Of a DNA stretch of 30,285 nt, positions 5,275 to 28,908 are shown piece by piece. Positions within the stretch are counted from its first letter, which is position 1. Every line of letters begins with the position of its first letter. The notes below the pieces were generated by a model. The model was not told the origin of the DNA. It was given only the letters and a program-made list of their open reading frames with translations, and searched no databases. A program made the translations under genes and the position numbers. The stretch is taken from the IMG/VR virus record IMGVR_UViG_3300025082_000044, positions 1 to 30,285 of that record; one strand, 5' to 3'. The stretch is from a virus.

Positions 5275-5608
5275 TGGAGCGCCGACGTTCAAGCCCACCG
5301 ACGACGAGCGCAAGCTGGTCGAGCAGATGAGTGCCGTTGGAATCCCGCAGGAGTCCATCTGCCAGGTGGTCCGGGACGGCATCGACGACAAGACCCTGCG
5401 AAAGCACTTCCGCAAGGAACTGGATACGGCGGCGCCCAAGGCGAACGCCAATGTAGCCGGCATGTTATACAACAAGGCCTTGGGCGGCGACATAGCGGCG
5501 TGCATCTGGTGGACAAAAGCCCGCATGAAGTGGGCGGAAAAACGTGAACTCGAACACGCCGGCAAGGACGGCGGGCCGATCATTCTATGGGGCAGCAAGC
5601 CAGGATAG
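5258..5608 (+). CDS. terS: Small terminase subunit (TerS-like)
   Basis: 116 residues from ATG 5258 (ATG 5264 is equally possible; no clear ribosome site, both inside the methylase 3' end). An N-terminal helix-turn-helix region (ERKLVEQMSAVGIPQESICQVVRDGIDDKTLRKHF) is followed by NVAGMLYNKALGGDIAACIWWTKARMKWAE, a pattern typical of small terminases that recognise the pac/cos site and load the large subunit. It overlaps the large terminase by 22 bases, the usual terS-terL arrangement. The assignment rests on pattern and on this neighbour. Confidence 0.8.
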   Translation: MQMPRNGAPTFKPTDDERKLVEQMSAVGIPQESICQVVRDGIDDKTLRKHFRKELDTAAPKANANVAGMLYNKALGGDIAACIWWTKARMKWAEKRELEHAGKDGGPIILWGSKPG

Positions 5609-13604: not shown

Positions 13605-13961
13605 GTGGGAGAATTAGCTGACCGATTGCTAACGCCGCCTTTTAATGAAGAGGAATTCCAGAAAGGCATTCGCGCGACGGATTGGTACAACGAATACATC
13701 CAGCAGTATGGCGAAGGGCCAGACCTTCGTCCGATGTCTGATGACCCGCGAAAAGGGCCGAATTACGACTATAGGGCCGCCTGGGCAAGAGGTGTCCGAC
13801 CTAACTACAGGGACCCAAATGACGGGCAATTACATTGGGCCAGTTCAGCCGGTGGGCAAATGCTCAAATCAGAGAGTCATCCTACCTTCTGGAAAGAAGG
13901 CTTCATGCGCCGACATGGTGTTAATCCCGACTCACTTGGTTTCGTCGGGGTGAAGAAATGA
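13605..13961 (+). CDS. Conserved phage virion-module protein
   Basis: 118 residues from GTG 13605, with GGAAGGGG eight bases before; TTG 13599 is the alternative, and the longer frame from 13512 lies within the previous gene. The C-terminal part (YDYRAAWARGVRPNYRDPNDGQLHWAS, HPTFWKEGFM) matches small proteins common in podovirus tail modules, all of unknown function. Its stop overlaps the next ATG (ATGA). Confidence 0.65.
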   Translation: MGELADRLLTPPFNEEEFQKGIRATDWYNEYIQQYGEGPDLRPMSDDPRKGPNYDYRAAWARGVRPNYRDPNDGQLHWASSAGGQMLKSESHPTFWKEGFMRRHGVNPDSLGFVGVKK

Positions 13962-15472
13962 AGGCACCTTCCAAGTCGAAATCGCTGCCGCCGCCGGTTG
14001 GTGGCTGGGATACCCGCGAGGCTCTTGCGGACATGCCGATCAAGAATGCGGTGATTTTGGATAATTGGTTTCCATCGACCGACAAGGTGACGTTGCGTCG
14101 GGGGCATTCGTCCCACGCCACCGGGATGAGCGGGACAGTCGAAAGCCTGATCGAATATGTACCTCTGACCGGTTCGGGCAAGCTCTTCGCCGCCAATGCT
14201 GGCAACATATACGACGTATCCAGCGCGGGCGCGGTTGGCGGCGCCGTTGTTTCCGGGCAGACCAACAACCGCTGGCAATATGTCAACATGGGAACAGGCG
14301 GCGGGCAGTTCGTCAGGCTGTTCAACGGCGCCGACACGCCGCAGCTTTACAACGGCTCGGCCTGGGCGACCACGGCCATCACCGGCCCAACAGCCGCGAA
14401 CTTGATCTGGGGCAACCTGCATCAACGCCGGCTGTGGTGCGGGGAGAAGGATAGCCTCTCGGCGTGGTATCTGGGCGTCAACTCTATAAGCGGCGCGGCG
14501 ACCGAGTTTCCTCTTGCCGGCATCGCCTCATTGGGCGGTTACATCATGGCGATGGGGACGTGGACGCGGGACGCGGGCGACGGGCAAGACGACGTAGGGG
14601 TGTTTCTGACTTCCGAGGGCGAGGCGATTGTCTATTCCGGGACGGATCCCTCCGCTGCGGCGACGTGGGGCTTGGTTGGCGTCTTCCGCATCGGCAAGCC
14701 CATAGGCCGCCGATGCATGATAAAGGCCGGCGCTGATCTGGTCATGGTCACCCAGGACGGTTTTGTCACGGCTGCGACAATTCTCAGCGTGGACAGGGCG
14801 CAGACCGAAAGAGTGGCGCTTTCGGCGCAGATCAACAAGGCGGTAAACGATGCGGTGCGGGATTATGGCTCGGTTTTTGGGTGGGAGCCGTACATCTACA
14901 CCAAGGGTACGATGTTGATTTTCAACGTACCCAAGACGACGGTGATCGCTTATCAATACGTGTTCAATACGATCACCGGGGCGCCGTGCCGGTTCACCGG
15001 CGTCAATGCCTACTGCTGGGGCTCGCTGAACGACAACGCCTATTTCGGCGGCGCGGACGGGGTTGTCTATAAATTCGACACCGGGAACAATGACAACGGC
15101 ACCAGCATCAACGGTGACGCATTGCAGGCGTTCAGCTATTTTGGATCGCCTGGGACGAACAAGGCCTTCAAGCTGGTAGAGCCGATTTTCGAGTCTGTGG
15201 CCAACCCAGAAGCGGCGTTGGACCTGAATACGGATTTCCAGATCAAGGCCCCGACAGGCGTGTCCGTGCCGAGTCCGACGGCGGCGGCCAAGTGGGGCGT
15301 GGCCAAGTGGGGCGTCGGTGTTTGGGGCGGCGCCAATCAGATTTATCGTGGCTGGCGGGGTACTCGAGGCATCGGCCGGGCGGCGTCGTTGCGGGTGCGA
15401 GTGAGCACAACTTCGGCTCGACCGTCGTGGGTGGCGTCGAACTTTATTTATGTGTCGGGCGGGCAGATTTGA
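13958..15472 (+). CDS. Tail/DNA-stabilisation protein, beta-propeller type
   Basis: 504 residues. The start (PPPVGGWDTREALADMPIKNAVILDNWFPSTDKVTLRRG) is the hallmark of a widespread podovirus structural family that follows the connector and is often compared to P22 gp10. The body has repeated beta segments (LFAANAGNIYDVSSAG, VRLFNGADTPQLYNGSAW, NAYFGGADGVVYKFDTG) suggesting a propeller. The C-terminus has KWGVAKWGVGVWGG, a short internal duplication. It probably forms part of the tail nozzle below the adaptor. Overlaps both neighbours by 4 bases. Confidence 0.75.
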   Translation: MKAPSKSKSLPPPVGGWDTREALADMPIKNAVILDNWFPSTDKVTLRRGHSSHATGMSGTVESLIEYVPLTGSGKLFAANAGNIYDVSSAGAVGGAVVSGQTNNRWQYVNMGTGGGQFVRLFNGADTPQLYNGSAWATTAITGPTAANLIWGNLHQRRLWCGEKDSLSAWYLGVNSISGAATEFPLAGIASLGGYIMAMGTWTRDAGDGQDDVGVFLTSEGEAIVYSGTDPSAAATWGLVGVFRIGKPIGRRCMIKAGADLVMVTQDGFVTAATILSVDRAQTERVALSAQINKAVNDAVRDYGSVFGWEPYIYTKGTMLIFNVPKTTVIAYQYVFNTITGAPCRFTGVNAYCWGSLNDNAYFGGADGVVYKFDTGNNDNGTSINGDALQAFSYFGSPGTNKAFKLVEPIFESVANPEAALDLNTDFQIKAPTGVSVPSPTAAAKWGVAKWGVGVWGGANQIYRGWRGTRGIGRAASLRVRVSTTSARPSWVASNFIYVSGGQI

Positions 15473-20377: not shown

Positions 20378-21688
20378 ATGGCCCGTGACGGAAGCGGCAC
20401 ATTCAACCGGGCGGAGTCGGACTACGTCTATGACACGGTGATTGACGAGAGTGCAGTCAACACCGAAATGGACGACGTTGCAGCCGCGCTGACAGCCTCG
20501 ATTGCAAAAGACGGACAGACCAACCCGGCCGCCAACCTGCCGATGGCGACATACCGCCACACGGGCGTCGGCAACGCCACTGCGAGAACGGACTACGCGG
20601 CGGTGGGCCAGGCTCAGGACGGCTCGTTCGTCTGGTGCGGCACGGCGGGGGGGGCGGCGGACGCTATCACTCTGACGCCATCCCCTGCCATCACCGCTTA
20701 CGCCGCAGGGCAAAAATTCCGCTGGAAAGCCAGCGCGAATGGCAACACGGGTGCCGCGACGGTTGCCATTTCCGGGTTGACCACGAAGGCGCTTGAACTC
20801 AACGACGCGGCTCTAGTCGCAGGCAACCATGCCGCTAATAAATATTATGAGGGCCTATACGACGGCACGGCATTTCAGATCACCCGTCAGTCAGTAGCCT
20901 CGACCGGCATGGCCAACGTAGTCGAAGACGCCTCGCCGCAATTAGGCGGTGCGCTCGACCCGAATAGTCAGTTTATCGGGATGGACAAGGGCGGCGACAT
21001 TGCTTCTGCCAGCCCGTTGGTAATCGACACGGATGGCGACTACTTCGACGTGACCGGCACAACTGGTTTCGCCGCAATGACTGTCGCGGCCAACCGACAT
21101 TTCTTTTTGCAGTTCGATGCCGCGCTGACGATGACGCATCATGCGACGAACCTGGACCTTCCCGGCGAAGCAAATATCACCACAGTAGCAGGGGATGTCG
21201 CTGAGTTCTTCTCAACGGGGTCAAACACTGTCCAGTGTGTCAACTACATAAAAGCTGATGGCACGGCAGTGGTGGCAAGTGTTGTTGATGACACTACGCC
21301 GCAATTAGGCGGTGCGCTCGACGGCCAGGACAATATCGTTAGTGAAATAAACCTCAAGGATTACGGCGAGATAACGAATGCCCTCGGTGATCTAGCGGGC
21401 GGCACGGACGACATAGACCTGACTGCGGGCAATGTCGTAACTGCCACTGTCTCGACCAGCACCGAGACTTTTACATTTTCCAACCCCACGGCATCAGATG
21501 AAGGGTGTTCTTTTACCCTCATCCTTACCAACGGCGGCTCGCAGACCGTGAATTGGCCGGCGAGTGTGGATTGGGCAGGTGGAGAAGCGCCGTCGCTGAC
21601 CGCTTCTGGGGTTGATATTCTGGTTTTCTTAACGGTGGACGGCGGCACTATTTGGCACGGGGCCATCGCCAGCACGGATAGTTCGTAA
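20378..21688 (+). CDS. Tail fibre / receptor-binding protein
   Basis: 436 residues, ATG after GGAGCGAGCAA. The N-terminus (MARDGSGTFNRAESDYVYDTVIDESAVNTEMDDVAAALTASIAKDG) is the attachment region of many podovirus fibres. The body is beta-rich, Thr/Gly/Ala-rich, and has two copies of PQLGGALD (about 188 and 308), a motif common in phage fibres. It should bind the host surface. The second copy and its continuation GQDNIVS are repeated, in inverted DNA orientation, in the small gene at 24316-24605. The next gene starts in the overlapping TAATG. Confidence 0.8.
   Translation: MARDGSGTFNRAESDYVYDTVIDESAVNTEMDDVAAALTASIAKDGQTNPAANLPMATYRHTGVGNATARTDYAAVGQAQDGSFVWCGTAGGAADAITLTPSPAITAYAAGQKFRWKASANGNTGAATVAISGLTTKALELNDAALVAGNHAANKYYEGLYDGTAFQITRQSVASTGMANVVEDASPQLGGALDPNSQFIGMDKGGDIASASPLVIDTDGDYFDVTGTTGFAAMTVAANRHFFLQFDAALTMTHHATNLDLPGEANITTVAGDVAEFFSTGSNTVQCVNYIKADGTAVVASVVDDTTPQLGGALDGQDNIVSEINLKDYGEITNALGDLAGGTDDIDLTAGNVVTATVSTSTETFTFSNPTASDEGCSFTLILTNGGSQTVNWPASVDWAGGEAPSLTASGVDILVFLTVDGGTIWHGAIASTDSS
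20934..20959 (+). repeat. 26-bp direct repeat in tail fibre, copy 1
   Basis: CGCCGCAATTAGGCGGTGCG continuing to CTCGAC; identical at 21297-21322, in the same frame, encoding PQLGGALD. Confidence 0.9.
21297..21322 (+). repeat. 26-bp direct repeat in tail fibre, copy 2
   Basis: Second exact copy of 20934-20959. From 21302 it forms part of the longer segment that recurs inverted at 24537-24578. Confidence 0.9.
21302..21343 (+). repeat. Dispersed inverted repeat, tail-fibre copy
   Basis: 42 bases, matching the complement of 24537-24578 at 40 of 42 positions, the first 29 exactly. Both copies encode QLGGALDGQDNIVS in frame in their own genes. The segment between the two copies is about 3.2 kb and holds the fibre 3' end, lectin-like gene, lysis genes and the small minus-strand block. 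Confidence 0.9.
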
Positions 21689-22987: not shown

Positions 22988-23176
22988 ATGACCGACCCGC
23001 AGCAAATAGCCAAGGCCGTCGGCGACGTGGCGATGGGCGCGGGCATTGCATCGTCGCCCTGGTGGTTGGTGCCTTTGCAAGACGGCCTCAACGTCATCGC
23101 GGTCGCTGCGGGTGTAATGCTTGCGATAATCCGAATCGCCATATCAATCCGCGAATGGCGAACCCCGAAAGAATAG
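22988..23176 (+). CDS. Holin candidate
   Basis: 62 residues beginning MTDPQQIAKAVGDVAMG. There is a hydrophobic patch SSPWWLVPLQ and a clear transmembrane helix LNVIAVAAGVMLAIIRIAIS, followed by a basic tail IREWRTPKE. Size, topology, and position immediately before the endolysin fit a holin that permeabilises the inner membrane for lysozyme release. Sequence alone cannot separate a holin from an antiholin. An overlapping frame from ATG 22984 is Arg-rich and was set aside. Confidence 0.65.
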   Translation: MTDPQQIAKAVGDVAMGAGIASSPWWLVPLQDGLNVIAVAAGVMLAIIRIAISIREWRTPKE

Positions 23177-23180
23177 TGTG

Positions 23181-23747
23181 ATGGCCGGTTTTTATTGCTT
23201 CGATGCCGCAATTGAAACGGTGTTGTTGCATGAGGGTTTCGACCGATTCACCGACGACAAAGCTGATCCCGGCGGGCCTACCCGCTGGGGGATCTCGCTG
23301 CGGTTTTTACAGACCCTCGGAGATGATGACGGCGACGGCTGGCTTGATGGTGACCTGGATCATGACGGCGATGTCGATATCGAGGACATCCGCTCGATGA
23401 CGCGCCTTCACGCCGCGGAACTTTACCGGTGCCAATTCTGGGATCGATACAGATACGGTCAATTGCCCCAGAGCCGGGTTCGCGTCAAGGTTTTCGACCT
23501 CGCCGTCAACATGGGTCCGCGTAACGCGCACAAGGTTCTGCAACGGGCCTGCCGGGCTTGCGGCCATGACATTGCCGACGACGGTATTCTCGGCCCGATT
23601 ACCCGGGAAACAGCCAACGCTTGCCTGCAAGAGACTCTACTGGCCGCCTGCCGGTCAGAAGCCGCCGGCCATTACCGCAGTCTCGTTCTGCGCCGTCCGG
23701 CATTCGGCAAATATATCGCGGGCTGGCTCAACCGGGCCTATTCCTGA
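23181..23747 (+). CDS. GH108-type endolysin (muramidase)
   Basis: 188 residues from ATG 23181 (GTG 23178 also in frame). Peptidoglycan hydrolase for lysis. The GH108 signature HEGFDRFTDDKADPGGPTRWGIS contains the catalytic glutamate (Glu18). An Asp/Gly-rich insert, DDDGDGWLDGDLDHDGDVDIEDI, has the DxDxDG spacing of a dockerin/EF-hand calcium site. The C-terminal half (VFDLAVNMG, DDGILGPITRETANACL) corresponds to the peptidoglycan-binding domain normally paired with GH108. No signal peptide, so it depends on the holin. It converges with the XRE gene, the coding ends overlapping by 10 bases. Confidence 0.9.
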   Translation: MAGFYCFDAAIETVLLHEGFDRFTDDKADPGGPTRWGISLRFLQTLGDDDGDGWLDGDLDHDGDVDIEDIRSMTRLHAAELYRCQFWDRYRYGQLPQSRVRVKVFDLAVNMGPRNAHKVLQRACRACGHDIADDGILGPITRETANACLQETLLAACRSEAAGHYRSLVLRRPAFGKYIAGWLNRAYS

Positions 23748-23992
23748 CCCCCCTTGCGGTTTCGACCGCGGGGCGCGGGGCCTCTTCGGAGGCCCTTGCT
23801 TAATTGATCGGGGCTTGTGGTCCCGGTCGCCAGCATGTACCGGACGGCGATGATGGCCGGCCCCGGAATGTCACGCTCGCCGGATTGCCAGCGGCGGATT
23901 GTGCGGCCATCGGAAACCCGCAGGGCGCGGGCCATACCCTGGGCGCTGAGGCCCAAGGCGTGGCGGGCGGCCTTAAATTCGGCGCGGGTCAT
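23738..23992 (-). CDS. XRE-type helix-turn-helix regulator
   Basis: 84 residues from ATG 23992, six bases after GGAA; an ATG two codons earlier (23998) is possible. The HTH is clear: FKAARHALGLSAQGMARALRVSDGRTIRRWQSGERDIPGPAIIAVRYML, typical of small repressors. The C-terminus is basic. A 22-bp element containing TTGACA (24022-24043) lies 30-40 bases upstream and recurs before the gene at 24605. With a normal spacer the transcript would start at or next to the ATG, so it may be leaderless. It could be a local repressor for this block; whether it is the phage immunity repressor cannot be said. Confidence 0.75.
   Translation of the reverse strand: MTRAEFKAARHALGLSAQGMARALRVSDGRTIRRWQSGERDIPGPAIIAVRYMLATGTTSPDQLSKGLRRGPAPRGRNRKGGQE
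23752..23800 (+). terminator. Tandem UUCG-capped hairpins ending the late operon
   Basis: First stem 23752-23773 (GCGGT/ACCGC core, nine pairs including two T-G). Second stem GGGCCTC/GAGGCCC at 23778-23795, perfect. Both have UUCG loops; TTGCTTAATT follows the second. They lie inside the 3' end of the opposite-strand XRE gene, so they act for + strand transcripts. Confidence 0.65.
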
Positions 23993-24021
23993 ATTCATTT
24001 CCAGTACTCGGGTTTGATCGT

Positions 24022-24043
24022 TATCTGTCAACAAGAATCTGCT
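24022..24043 (-). promoter_or_regulatory. 22-bp promoter-type repeat, copy 1
   Basis: On the minus strand it reads AGCAGATTCTTGTTGACAGATA with a consensus -35 TTGACA (24031-24026). An identical copy occurs at 24676-24697. No good -10 is seen at 17 bases here, so it may be weak, activated, or only an operator for the XRE gene. Confidence 0.6.
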
Positions 24044-24053
24044 TCCTATGGCT

Positions 24054-24269
24054 TCATCCCTTCGGGTAGGTTTGTTCCCAGCCGTTCGCGGTCTTTTCCC
24101 AAACTTCGGCAACGTGTTCATGTTCAAAACCATCAATGATGCTGGCGCCGGCGCGGTCCGCATAGGCTTTGGCTTTGGCCAAGGTGGAGAAATCCTGGTC
24201 AACATATTCCATGTCTGCGCCGGGCCCGGAGACGTCCTGTTCATGGACAAGGTAATTTAATTTTTGCAT
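24054..24269 (-). CDS. Small conserved phage protein
   Basis: 71 residues from ATG 24269, preceded by AGGAGT at the ideal distance. The frame is open upstream into the previous gene without a stop, but the strong ribosome site marks this as a separate start. The end SIIDGFEHEHVAEVWEKTANGWEQT and AKAKAYADRAG resemble small phage proteins of unknown function. It lies between the frameshifted gene 24316-24605 and the XRE gene on the same strand, apparently one short operon. Confidence 0.7.
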   Translation of the reverse strand: MQKLNYLVHEQDVSGPGADMEYVDQDFSTLAKAKAYADRAGASIIDGFEHEHVAEVWEKTANGWEQTYPKG

Positions 24270-24315
24270 GTGATTTACTCCTGGTTGCTGGTTGACTGAG
24301 GCTAGGCTAGAAAGT

Positions 24316-24605
24316 CTAGTGGAACGTAGCGCGGGGATCATCGTAGCACCCCTCACCCAGATTAATCCGTCGTCCTCGCGGGCGATCTCGCGGGCTTCGT
24401 TCACCGTTAAGCCCTTGCGAGCATCTTCGGTGGGGTCGGCAAATTTATTCAGCAATAGGTCGTTTTCTTCCGCATATTCGATAGCAGCGTGGCCTACCAA
24501 AAAGCCGTTGATGACCCGCAGGAGTCCATCTGCCAGACTGACGATATTATCCTGGCCGTCGAGCGCACCGCCTAATTGATGCTTTGATGCGGTTTCTTTT
24601 TTCAT
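24316..24605 (-). pseudogene. Small phage gene with tail-fibre-derived 5' part and apparent frameshift
   Basis: Starts at ATG 24605 (MKKETASKH), then QLGGALDGQDNIVS, which is encoded by the 42-bp copy of the tail-fibre segment. The rest (LADGLLRVINGFLVGHAAIEYAEENDLLLNKFADPTEDARKGLTV plus REIAREDDGLIWV) reads as a compact helical protein. As written, the frame does not stop and continues into the 71-residue gene. Adding one base to the four-C run at 24349-24352 gives the ending RGCYDDPRATFH and a TAG at 24316, before the next ribosome site. That indicates a natural frameshift or a homopolymer error. The in-frame product as given would be 184 residues. Function unknown. Confidence 0.55.
24537..24578 (-). 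repeat. Dispersed inverted repeat, minus-strand copy
   Basis: Complement matches tail-fibre bases 21302-21343 at 40 of 42 positions. Here it supplies residues 10-23 of the small minus-strand gene. Confidence 0.9.
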
Positions 24606-24656
24606 GGTCTTGTTTTCCCTTTTCCAGGCGGGCACCGTTGCCCTGTTGATGACTGC

Positions 24657-24685
24657 ATCATGGGACCAACGGTCCTATCTGTCAA
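24657..24685 (-). promoter_or_regulatory. Minus-strand sigma70 promoter with palindromic operator
   Basis: -35 TTGACA (24685-24680), 17-base spacer, -10 CATGAT (24662-24657). The spacer contains the palindrome GGACCgttGGTCC (24675-24663), a likely repressor site placed where bound protein would block polymerase. It drives the block 24605-23738. Confidence 0.65.
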
Positions 24686-24697
24686 CAAGAATCTGCT
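24676..24697 (-). repeat. 22-bp promoter-type repeat, copy 2
   Basis: Exact copy of 24022-24043; includes the -35 of the promoter above. The repeats bracket the two small genes, so recombination between them could delete the block. Confidence 0.85.
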
Positions 24698-24735: not shown

Positions 24736-24906
24736 ATGGACAAAATACCTCTGCCACCAGACTCGAAATATTGGTCGGTGGCAGACGTAGAGCGGTGGCT
24801 GAGATGGGCCACGTGGGAGAGGTGGGCCACAGTGGCAGTGGTCTGCGCGGTTGTCCCTTTCATGACTGCGTTTCTGATTTTTTCCATCATGATTTTGGGC
24901 AAATAA
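24736..24906 (+). CDS. 56-residue membrane protein, first gene of the lipase cassette
   Basis: ATG 24736 to TAA 24906. The product begins MDKIPLPPDSKYWSVADVERW and has an amphipathic Trp-rich part (VERWLRWATWERWA) followed by a long hydrophobic helix (VAVVCAVVPFMTAFLIFSIMIL) and GK. This is a single-span membrane protein with a tryptophan-rich interfacial segment. The next gene starts 10 bases later with AAAGGA, and the third overlaps that by 4, so the three form an operon. No strong ribosome site precedes the ATG. It could be a lysis accessory, spanin-like factor or membrane partner for the lipase; none is proven. Confidence 0.6.
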   Translation: MDKIPLPPDSKYWSVADVERWLRWATWERWATVAVVCAVVPFMTAFLIFSIMILGK

Positions 24907-24916
24907 AGGACTCGAT

Positions 24917-25252
24917 ATGTCAATAATGAGCGACACGCTTGACGCCCTCGCTGCGGAAGAAGATGCCAGGACGCTGACCGTCCAGCAGTACGAGGCGGCG
25001 CGGAAGGAGTGGGAAGAAATAGACGCCCGATACGCGGCGTTGCGCCCCGCAGCCTCGGAAAATGATGTGGTGGCGCGGGTGGTGAGCATGGTCCGCCGCT
25101 ATGGGCCCAAGGCCGCTGCGGTATTCGGCGGGCCTGCCGCTGGCGCGGGGGCGGCTGCGTTTGTCGCTGACGAGGGCGGATTTAGCGATGCCCTGGGCTG
25201 GACGCACCTCATCGGCCAGCTTTTTGGTGTGGTGGCGGGCGACTCGCCATGA
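24917..25252 (+). CDS. Hypothetical protein in lipase cassette
   Basis: 111 residues, ATG after AAAGGACTCGAT. The N-terminal 45 residues are charged helix (LAAEEDARTLTVQQYEAARKEWEEIDARYAAL), probably coiled coil; then VARVVSMVRRYGPKAAAVFGGPAAGAGAAAFVAD, a Gly/Ala-rich hydrophobic stretch that may enter a membrane. The C-terminus is mildly hydrophobic. Its stop overlaps the lipase ATG (ATGA). Translational coupling suggests it works with the lipase, as a chaperone, anchor or inhibitor. I recognise no family. Confidence 0.65.
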   Translation: MSIMSDTLDALAAEEDARTLTVQQYEAARKEWEEIDARYAALRPAASENDVVARVVSMVRRYGPKAAAVFGGPAAGAGAAAFVADEGGFSDALGWTHLIGQLFGVVAGDSP

Positions 25253-25896
25253 GTGGCCTCGCTCACACCTGCGCGGTTCTGTCGCGCCTGGCATATTCGG
25301 ACGATCTGACCCTCGGGCTGATCGGACAGACATGGATCGCAAGATTTGACCGGGGCGGGACGCAAGCCTTCATCTCGACCGATACCGGCGGCCGCTTGTA
25401 CCTGGCATTTCGCGGCACGGAAGAACCTGCTGATATCAAGGCCGATCTCAAATATGCGAAGGTCGATTACCCAGGCGGCGGGCGTGTCCACGCGGGTTTT
25501 TTGGAAGCATTCGGGCGAATCCATGGCGATGTGCAGGAGGTGCTAGACGAGCATCGGGACCGGACATGGATATTCACCGGCCATTCCCTGGGCGCGGCGC
25601 TGGCACTGTTGGCGGCGGCAAGGTGGAAACCGTCGGCAGCTTATCTTTACGGCTGCCCTCGAGTCGGTAATTTGGCATTCGTTGCCACGGTGAGTTGCTC
25701 TGTGTACAGATTTGAAAACAGGGGCGACATCGTCACCAAGCTGCCGCCGCCGACCTCGCCTATGCAAATCTGGCGCTCACTGAGACAAGGTCGTCGGCCA
25801 TCCTTGTACCGCCACGCCGGCAAGCGCGTCCGGCTCTCCGGCTTTGGCCTCGGCCATCGGGTGGCATATTACGAGGCCGCGACGGCGGAGATGTAA
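25249..25896 (+). CDS. Class 3 lipase (alpha/beta hydrolase)
   Basis: 215 residues. Motifs of lipase class 3: oxyanion segment LAFRGTEE (about 52-58), VHAGFLEAF before the nucleophile, and FTGHSLGAALALL with nucleophile Ser113. CPRVGN follows at about 136-141, then Asp160 in ENRGDIV and His203 in GHRVAYY. All triad positions are present, so it should be an active lipid or ester hydrolase. No signal peptide is visible. It ends the three-gene cassette downstream of holin and endolysin. Possible jobs: attacking the outer membrane at lysis in place of a spanin, or a lysogenic-conversion or exclusion function. The family is well supported; the role is inferred. Confidence 0.85.
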   Translation: MSGLAHTCAVLSRLAYSDDLTLGLIGQTWIARFDRGGTQAFISTDTGGRLYLAFRGTEEPADIKADLKYAKVDYPGGGRVHAGFLEAFGRIHGDVQEVLDEHRDRTWIFTGHSLGAALALLAAARWKPSAAYLYGCPRVGNLAFVATVSCSVYRFENRGDIVTKLPPPTSPMQIWRSLRQGRRPSLYRHAGKRVRLSGFGLGHRVAYYEAATAEM

Positions 25897-26264: not shown

Positions 26265-26696
26265 CTAGGTCGTCGGCGGGCCAACCATCGAATACACCTC
26301 ATCCAGTAGGGCCTTTTGGTCCATGCCAGGCACCACATCGGTGATGAGGAAATCGACGGCGCGAGAAAAAAAGGCGTCGAAAGCCGTTTGATCCATAGCA
26401 GCAAACGAAATGCTTAGCGGCACCTGGTAAGTGCCGGTCTTGAGGACGATAACCTTGGTATGGCCGATGGCGATTTTCAGCGCGTCGAGCAGGTCATCGA
26501 CGCGGCGAAAATGCTCTTGATGGTCAAAGACTAGATTCAGCAGAGCGAAAAACAGCATGTGGTGGCGCAGGTTGCGCGGCCGCCTGATGTCGGCCTGGAC
26601 ATGCTCGCCGTGCCGAACCCTGGCGATTGATTCCTCGGCCTTCGGATCAGCAGGCGCCAGCTTGCCGAATTCTTTGCGGAAGATGCCGCGAGCCAT
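26265..26696 (-). CDS. DUF1367-type phage protein
   Basis: 143 residues from ATG 26696, preceded by GAGGGGGG. The block RRPRNLRHHMLFFALLNLVFDHQEHFRRVDDLLDALKIAIGH, then SISFAAMDQTAFDAFFSRAVDFL, is typical of the DUF1367 family in phage early or nin-like regions. Function is not established; neighbours in other phages are recombination and Holliday-junction genes. As sequenced the frame is continuous with the upstream RHH gene, but the ribosome site and family start support an independent start. A short gap leads to the HTH/zinc-ribbon gene. Confidence 0.8.
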   Translation of the reverse strand: MARGIFRKEFGKLAPADPKAEESIARVRHGEHVQADIRRPRNLRHHMLFFALLNLVFDHQEHFRRVDDLLDALKIAIGHTKVIVLKTGTYQVPLSISFAAMDQTAFDAFFSRAVDFLITDVVPGMDQKALLDEVYSMVGPPTT

Positions 26697-27101
26697 CACG
26701 CTGCCCCCCTCATCACCTTGGCGCGGATTTCCGGGTCCACGCTGTCCATCGCCAGCACAGCGGGCTTCGATGATCCCGGCGGCGCCGGCCAACAGCTTGA
26801 AAATCTCAAACTGCTCACGTCCACCAAATTCAAGGCCTATTTCTTTGACAATACCTCGGAGTTTCCGGTCAGAGACAGGGACTGTCTCAAGAACCTCCAC
26901 CTCGTGCTTGACATCTTCTTTGAGGAAAGACGCTTCAAGCCGGGACTCGATTTCCTGGCTTAAAGAACGTTTATTTTCCTCTGCCACCTTTTCCAGTCTT
27001 CCCCTAATTTCAGGAGTTGGCCGAAATCCCATGGCGGCCCGGCGCCGCTCCTTATCCGGAAGGGGGGGCCGCCCACGTTTTTTCTGCTTCTGCTCTGGCA
27101 T
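26696..27101 (-). pseudogene. Ribbon-helix-helix (Arc-like) gene with inserted xis segment and apparent frameshift
   Basis: Starts at ATG 27101 after GAGAAGG. KKRGRPPLPDKERR then AAMGFRPTPEIRGRLEKVAEENKRSLSQEIESRLEASF is an Arc/RHH DNA-binding domain. Next comes EVLETVPVSDRKLRGIVKEIGLE, encoded by a 69-bp near-copy of the excisionase gene, and then EQFEIFKLLAGAAGIIEA. As written, the frame then runs without a stop into the DUF1367 gene (278 codons in all). Removing one base from the GGG at 26762-26764 instead gives AAVLAMDSVDPEIRAKVMRGAA and a TGA overlapping the next ATG, which looks like the ancestral end. It may be a chimeric, partly decayed regulator, or the shift may be a sequencing error. 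Confidence 0.6.
26829..26897 (-). repeat. 69-bp dispersed repeat, copy in the RHH gene
   Basis: Matches 28810-28878 at 68 of 69 bases in the same orientation and the same reading frame (EVLETVPVSDRKLRxIVKEI). Source and direction of copying cannot be read directly, but the sequence is native-looking in the excisionase. Confidence 0.93.
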
Positions 27102-28741: not shown

Positions 28742-28908
28742 GCGATCCTTCCCTGGATTTCTGTCACTTGCGAGAGGGTGAAAGCATACTTCCCGCAACC
28801 GGGCGCCGGTTCAAGGCCTATTTCTTTGACAATATCTCGGAGTTTCCGGTCAGAGACAGGGACTGTCTCAAGAACCTCTGGCAGCGTGTACAGGCGCGGC
28901 AGGGTCAT
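28537..28908 (-). CDS. xis: Excisionase-like HTH protein, long overlap with int
   Basis: 123 residues from ATG 28908 with AGGAAG upstream. The N-terminal MerR/AlpA-type winged HTH is MTLPRLYTLPEVLETVPVSDRKLRDIVKEIGLEP, then GCGKYAFTLSQVTEIQ. Position just upstream of int supports an excisionase that bends DNA at att for excision. The only in-frame stop is at 28537, so the C-terminal 68 codons overlap int in another frame; this part is Ser/Thr/Arg-rich and likely disordered. A 69-bp piece of the HTH recurs in the RHH gene. Confidence 0.75.
   Translation of the reverse strand: MTLPRLYTLPEVLETVPVSDRKLRDIVKEIGLEPAPGCGKYAFTLSQVTEIQGRIACRSNSTSQEPGTGTRSITQQFPSKGEGLKSARGRQTRALLAASRSKESGNGMNITSLAEARKPCPAS
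28810..28878 (-). repeat. 69-bp dispersed repeat, copy in xis
   Basis: Partner of 26829-26897, one mismatch. It encodes the recognition region of the excisionase HTH. Confidence 0.93.

Follow-up and report, generated by a model that had tools for sequence, protein, structure and literature searches.

Can a phage lipase encoded near the lysis genes take part in the removal of the outer membrane, and could it even stand in for spanins? This question is raised by the virus record IMGVR_UViG_3300025082_000044, which we analyzed over its whole length of 30,285 nt (the window; the record is linear and possibly a fragment). In a survey of phages with Gram-negative hosts 91 of 677 (about 13%) had no recognisable spanin and 31 of these carried an orphan lipoprotein, lipases being unmentioned there (PMC6139136), and the way in which spanin-less phages break the outer membrane was called an open question in 2026 (PMC12819732). 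An earlier reading of the letters of the window, the sequence-only reading, had proposed that a lipase and a membrane partner, forming a cassette with a third gene, make up an alternative outer-membrane disruption system. Our analysis partly supports this interpretation.

The lysis region and its surroundings

The gene content of the window is podovirus-like (DnaB, terminase, portal protein phrog_156 and major head protein), and the lipase cassette is sited between the late and the early regions. All three plus-strand ORFs of the sequence-only reading are present and tightly coupled (Table 1), with a gap of +10 nt between the 56-codon ORF and the gene of the protein which we call GA and of -4 nt between GA and the lipase, the stop codon of GA overlapping the lipase start in the sequence ATGA. 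Its description of the neighbourhood holds as well: the holin-like gene and the endolysin gene lie upstream, the latter about 1.5 kb from the lipase, and two minus-strand ORFs come in between. The true start of the HTH regulator is probably located inside the ORF given in the table. Other phage loci and records are referred to by their survey labels (L002, L081 and so on; G007/L083 denotes one relative).

Table 1. Position of the lysis genes, the intervening minus-strand ORFs and the lipase cassette in the window
Feature	Position	Strand	Remarks
Holin-like 62-aa membrane protein	22988..23176	+	directly 5' of endolysin; called from position, size and hydropathy; 62-aa counterpart upstream of the L002 endolysin
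Endolysin, Glyco_hydro_108 (GH108) and PG_binding_3	23178..23747	+	homologue in L002 89% identical
HTH regulator ORF	23738..24250	-	between endolysin and cassette; phrog_14076 1.4e-6, HTH_31 0.0033
193-aa ORF	24054..24635	-	splits endolysin from cassette; no family match; promoter-like site 24685-24657
Trp-rich 56-codon ORF with a single hydrophobic segment toward the C-terminus (about residues 29-47)	24736..24906	+	putative gene
GA protein of 111 aa, all-helical by prediction, no lipoprotein	24917..25252	+	homologues in L002, L081, L082
Class 3 lipase, 215 aa, without signal peptide	25249..25896	+	PF01764, phrog_21992, alignments, AlphaFold2/Foldseek

An exact direct repeat of 22 nt (24022-24043 and 24676-24697) with a minus-strand TTGACA inside precedes both minus-strand genes and could be their shared operator or promoter. 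The segment 24515-24697 is a patchwork of short copies of other parts of the record, among them an exact 22-nt copy (24515-24536, identical to 5344-5365) and an inverted copy of part of the tail-fibre gene (24541-24578, 97% identical to 21302-21339); shuffled records yield about one repeat of at least 16 nt each. The patchwork may stem either from template switching or from an assembly artefact. Downstream of the cassette a 278-aa minus-strand protein (26265-27101) combines an Arc-like N-terminus with a NinB-like C-terminus, and within its gene positions 26829-26897 are a 98.6% copy of 28810-28878, located in a small minus-strand ORF. A 504-aa protein of the tail region (13958-15472) matches phrog_5107 'amidase' at 1e-126 and is possibly a second, virion-linked cell-wall enzyme.

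The lipase and its neighbours in the cassette

An intact class 3 lipase with the triad Ser113, Asp160 and His203 had been read from the sequence, and family score, alignment and fold model all agree with this assignment. Against PF01764 (Lipase_3) the protein reaches 79 bits (4.2e-22) with a cut-off of 22, and it matches phrog_21992 'esterase/lipase' at 6.9e-25. The nucleophile elbow GHSLG, of the GxSxG type, holds Ser113; in an alignment of 24-25 members Ser113 and Asp160 are invariant and His203 is nearly invariant. The AlphaFold2 model (pLDDT 91) has the fold of the fungal class 3 lipases and its best Foldseek matches are the lipases of Rhizomucor miehei (E 3e-13) and Rhizopus; a model segment of low confidence (about residues 57-70) occupies the position of the lid. 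Both by sequence and by structure the neighbours are fungal class 3 lipases, with plant phospholipase A1 being more distant. The window lipase is intact by these measures, and lipolytic activity is predicted for it. As judged from hydropathy, no surveyed phage lipase, the window's included, has a hydrophobic N-terminus or a signal peptide. Single-sequence scans of viral contigs revealed no relatives of the lipase or of GA, so that alignment scans were needed; bacterial genomes gave only weak lipase matches of 30-32%, in Olsenella/Atopobium.

Outside the window GA has homologues (35-42% identity) in L002, L081 and L082/L083, which represent three phage types. In L081 it lies directly 5' of a lipase which is 58% identical to that of the window. 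In L082/L083 a holin-like gene is followed by a DUF-type gene, an M15 peptidase, the lipase and GA, the lipase (49% identical to the window's) beginning one base after the stop codon of the M15 peptidase. The pair of GA and lipase thus recurs in two phages besides that of the window, and either gene may come first. In L002 GA comes right after the endolysin and the next gene encodes a DUF1353 protein, which occupies the place of the lipase in the window; Lipase_3 is absent across this whole record. We therefore regard GA as a protein of the lysis region which is often, not always, found with a lipase. GA belongs to no Pfam family, and homologues were found neither in bacterial genomes nor in reference phages. 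Its AlphaFold2 model is of low confidence and too weak for a structure search, and no clear transmembrane segment is seen in its hydropathy profile.

The 56-codon ORF is unproven as a genuine gene. A plus-strand ORF of this length arises about 26% of the time in a 281-nt stretch of such composition, which is within chance; no strong ribosome-binding site is visible, and homologues are absent from the reference phages and from the fetched loci. Its transmembrane segment is followed by a short tail. By eye neither this ORF nor GA is obviously a short cationic amphipathic peptide of the disruptin type. The stretch after the endolysin of L002 (6561-7485) holds, besides the GA homologue and the DUF1353 protein, a 56-aa C-terminally anchored membrane ORF; homology between this ORF and that of the window was rejected, since the score was not above that of shuffles.

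The three genes had been taken as one fixed system whose members should co-occur in related phages. This holds for GA and lipase but not for the membrane partner, the 56-aa ORF being without relatives. Because this ORF is not conserved and GA is separable from the lipase, as in L002, we rejected the idea of a conserved three-gene unit.

Endolysins and lipoproteins beside phage lipases

The lipase loci from the scans together with the window form 34 clusters at 70% identity, 33 without the window, and endolysin families were searched across the whole records of these loci. Of the 16 records with a detected endolysin, 10 have this gene on the lipase strand and at most 2 kb away, with 2.3 expected (P about 1e-6). 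The window is omitted from this count, as is L015, to which its endolysin had led us, and the length-based expectation is a rough one because phage genes are not randomly placed. The lipase is adjacent or nearly so to the endolysin or holin in L082, L086, L088 and L099, and in L080 a glucosaminidase is located about 0.8 kb upstream; neither an adjacent endolysin nor a lipoprotein was seen in the clusters L085, L092, L095, L097 and L129. That the lipase belongs with the lysis genes is therefore borne out, by the contact with the M15 peptidase in L082/L083 as well as by unrelated phage lipases standing beside endolysins above expectation.

A membrane protein of 112 aa which weakly matches the EF-hand is encoded between the lipase and the GH24 lysozyme in the IMG/VR phages L111 (4709-5047) and L160 (5768-6106) and is possibly a holin. 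Relatives infect Shewanella, Burkholderia and Xanthomonas. Two phage records of 47,902 bp with identical lipases, OK094664.1 and OP650936.1, were deposited with the hosts Shewanella baltica and Tenericutes bacterium, respectively, and one of these labels may be wrong.

The surroundings of the lipase bear on the explanation that the genes form a lysogenic conversion or superinfection-exclusion cassette, whose genes, placed at the border of the late region, would alter the envelope of the lysogen. The end of the late region is a usual place of conversion genes, and it is here that the lipase is found in the window and in QDWS-type prophages, beside minus-strand early genes or an integrase; the block with the minus-strand regulator also parts the cassette from the endolysin. 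However, in the phages L088, L086, L111, L160, L099 and L083 the lipase is flanked by holin-like and endolysin genes or adjoins them, the enzyme has no export signal, a scan found no plus-strand promoter-like site upstream of the cassette, and the G+C content of the GA and lipase genes is not deviant. All in all we consider conversion or exclusion unlikely.

A lipoprotein is the second frequent neighbour of phage lipases. Called by a lipobox scan and not by SignalP, its gene directly abuts the lipase in 17 of the 33 clusters; on the same strand there are 17 lipoproteins in 24.6 kb near the lipase compared with 4 in 203 kb elsewhere, and as a control an adjacent lipoprotein is present at 7 of 37 lipase-free GH108 endolysins. 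The lipase-linked lipoproteins, with gaps to the lipase of -71 to +34 nt, make up about ten families, for example YC..P (L086, L088, L099, L105 and L108), CG.REYSFEVP (L111, L118 and L160) and C.VVQPTL (L061, L063 and L079). They never have an Asp at position +2 after the lipidated Cys, and sorting to the outer membrane is therefore predicted by the E. coli rule. In the clade of the window GA takes the place of the lipoprotein.

In vB_Sb_QDWS (whole genome) and BgManors32 (59.0 of 59.8 kb) no credible lipoprotein is present except the one linked to the lipase, and the same applies to four IMG/VR records, not all of which were read to the last base; other lipobox matches there were set aside by eye, as their strands or frames look non-coding. 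Within 800 bp of this lone lipoprotein no i-spanin candidate, meaning a type II membrane ORF, was found in the two phages and the four records, so that no spanin pair is visible in them. Among open-access papers we found none on phage lipase-lipoprotein pairs and none on QDWS or BgManors32 that discusses the lipase.

Instead of being an outer-membrane anchor the lipoprotein might confer immunity to a lipase toxin or activate it, in the style of the T6SS Tle/Tli pairs; in the window GA would play this part in the cytosol. Phospholipases of the T6SS with a related fold do pair with lipoprotein immunity proteins, of which Tli3 is an outer-membrane lipoprotein (PMC9860674) and the Tli of E. cloacae neutralises and also activates its lipase (PMC11470151). 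Many phage relatives have an adjacent lipoprotein; the window lipase has no such partner beside it. Yet the phage lipases are without a delivery domain, immunity would hardly benefit lytic-type phages, and GA is also present without a lipase in L002, and we hold this explanation to be very improbable.

Spanins and a possible lysis role of the lipase

The window contains no credible lipoprotein in any frame; a few loose lipobox matches lie antisense to other genes. Consequently no o-spanin and no u-spanin were found in the 30.3 kb record, and the earlier statement that a spanin pair is not recognisable is confirmed for all frames. An outer-membrane lipoprotein is missing from the lysis region, as is a lipoprotein with a C-terminal transmembrane segment, and neither the 56-aa ORF nor GA has the N-terminal transmembrane segment and the periplasmic coiled coil of an i-spanin. 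In G007/L083, the closest relative with full context, a lipoprotein is located 458 bp from a membrane-anchored coiled-coil ORF, and the two could be a separated spanin pair. Lipase_3 was found in none of 12 phages of the published spanin-less list and in none of 31 other records with a GH108 endolysin, so the lipase is not a general answer for spanin-less phages.

Possibly the enzyme is an accessory of lysis and no outer-membrane disruptor: once the cell has lysed it would clear away extracellular polymer, storage lipid or the debris of membranes, as a lipase-class enzyme of the Bacillus phage PhiNIT1 acts on extracellular polymer after lysis (cited in PMC12173070), and an ordinary spanin would be encoded in a missing part of the genome. 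The linear and possibly fragmentary record and the combination of a lipase with a spanin-like pair in G007/L083 would agree with this. Spanins are, however, normally sited near the lysis genes, and the set of these in the window is complete. The two cultured phages, one covered wholly and the other to 99%, have no credible lipoprotein besides that linked to the lipase. We judge a purely accessory role to be improbable.

The chances seem to us evenly divided that the lipase is a late lysis enzyme which stays in the cytosol until its release, attacks membrane phospholipids and helps in the removal of the outer membrane. Made without an export signal, it would be confined to the cytoplasm as long as the holin has not opened the inner membrane, and would exit together with the endolysin; for an enzyme without export signal which is coded with the lysis genes, release by the holin is the simplest assumption. 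It would then hydrolyse membrane phospholipids, most usefully in the inner leaflet of the outer membrane, and thereby let the virions escape. A phospholipid substrate is likely because of the lipase family, and the outer membrane is the proposed target because it is the barrier without another visible gene in the window. GA would be an accessory of the lysis module, probably a membrane-associated or lipase-binding helper or regulator, and the 56-aa ORF, if real, an optional membrane accessory; in other phages the lipoprotein could hold its lipase close to the outer membrane, or else confer immunity or activate the enzyme. Holin release, phospholipid substrate, outer-membrane action and any substitution for spanins are inferred, for a host presumed to be Gram-negative. 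The conserved triad, the confident fold, the recurrence of GA with the lipase, the linkage to endolysins and lipoproteins, the lack of a signal peptide and the absence of a lipoprotein from the window argue for this reading; GA in place of the lipoprotein in the window clade, the possible spanins of G007/L083, the minus-strand block before the cassette, the lack of Lipase_3 in the spanin-less phages and the lipase clusters without endolysin or lipoprotein neighbours argue against it.

A more far-reaching proposal is that of an undescribed lysis module of Gram-negative phages, in which a cytosolic class 3 lipase and an outer-membrane lipoprotein (GA in the window clade) take over outer-membrane disruption from the spanins; some of the phages that were counted as spanin-less and have an orphan lipoprotein would in that case be of the lipase type. 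We regard this tentative proposal as rather unlikely, and the replacement of spanins by the lipase is unproven. In the cultured phages vB_Sb_QDWS and BgManors32 the lipase beside a lone lipoprotein is a concrete candidate for outer-membrane breakage without spanins, and such lipases could also supply enzymes that aid endolysins against Gram-negative bacteria. The negative outcome is useful too, the lipase being rare and absent from the 12 known spanin-less phages examined.

Among known systems phrog_21992 'esterase/lipase' offers a direct sequence match, but its category is 'other' and no lysis role is assigned to it. The T6SS Tle effectors and their Tli lipoproteins share the lipase fold and the pairing with a lipoprotein, whereas the phage lipases stand in a lysis context without a secretion apparatus. 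The mycobacteriophage LysB, a mycolylarabinogalactan esterase, is likewise a lipolytic alpha/beta-hydrolase; its gene accompanies the lysis genes and its target is the outermost barrier, as proposed for the window lipase. The LysB-type placement of a lipolytic gene beside endolysin and holin is seen at about 1.5 kb in the window and closer in L082, L086, L088 and L099. In contrast to LysB, the window protein has only Lipase_3 and generic hydrolase matches in Pfam and none to the LysB/cutinase family, the relatives infect Shewanella, Burkholderia and Xanthomonas, and the substrate would not be mycolate.

The GDSL lipase in the lysis cassette of a Pseudomonas Nickievirus, proposed to perturb the outer membrane, is also encoded next to holin and endolysin, and its phage has a Gram-negative host; unlike the window lipase it has a GDSL/SGNH fold and a carbohydrate-binding domain, no lipoprotein partner has been reported, and it was tested only as an engineered fusion (PMC12173070). 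Compared with the two-component and unimolecular spanins (Rz/Rz1, T1 gp11; PMC6139136) the window has no lipoprotein and the partner is an enzyme and not a periplasm-spanning coiled coil; what the lipase would have in common with them is the place of a third lysis function after holin and endolysin and, in many lipase phages, the lipoprotein partner.
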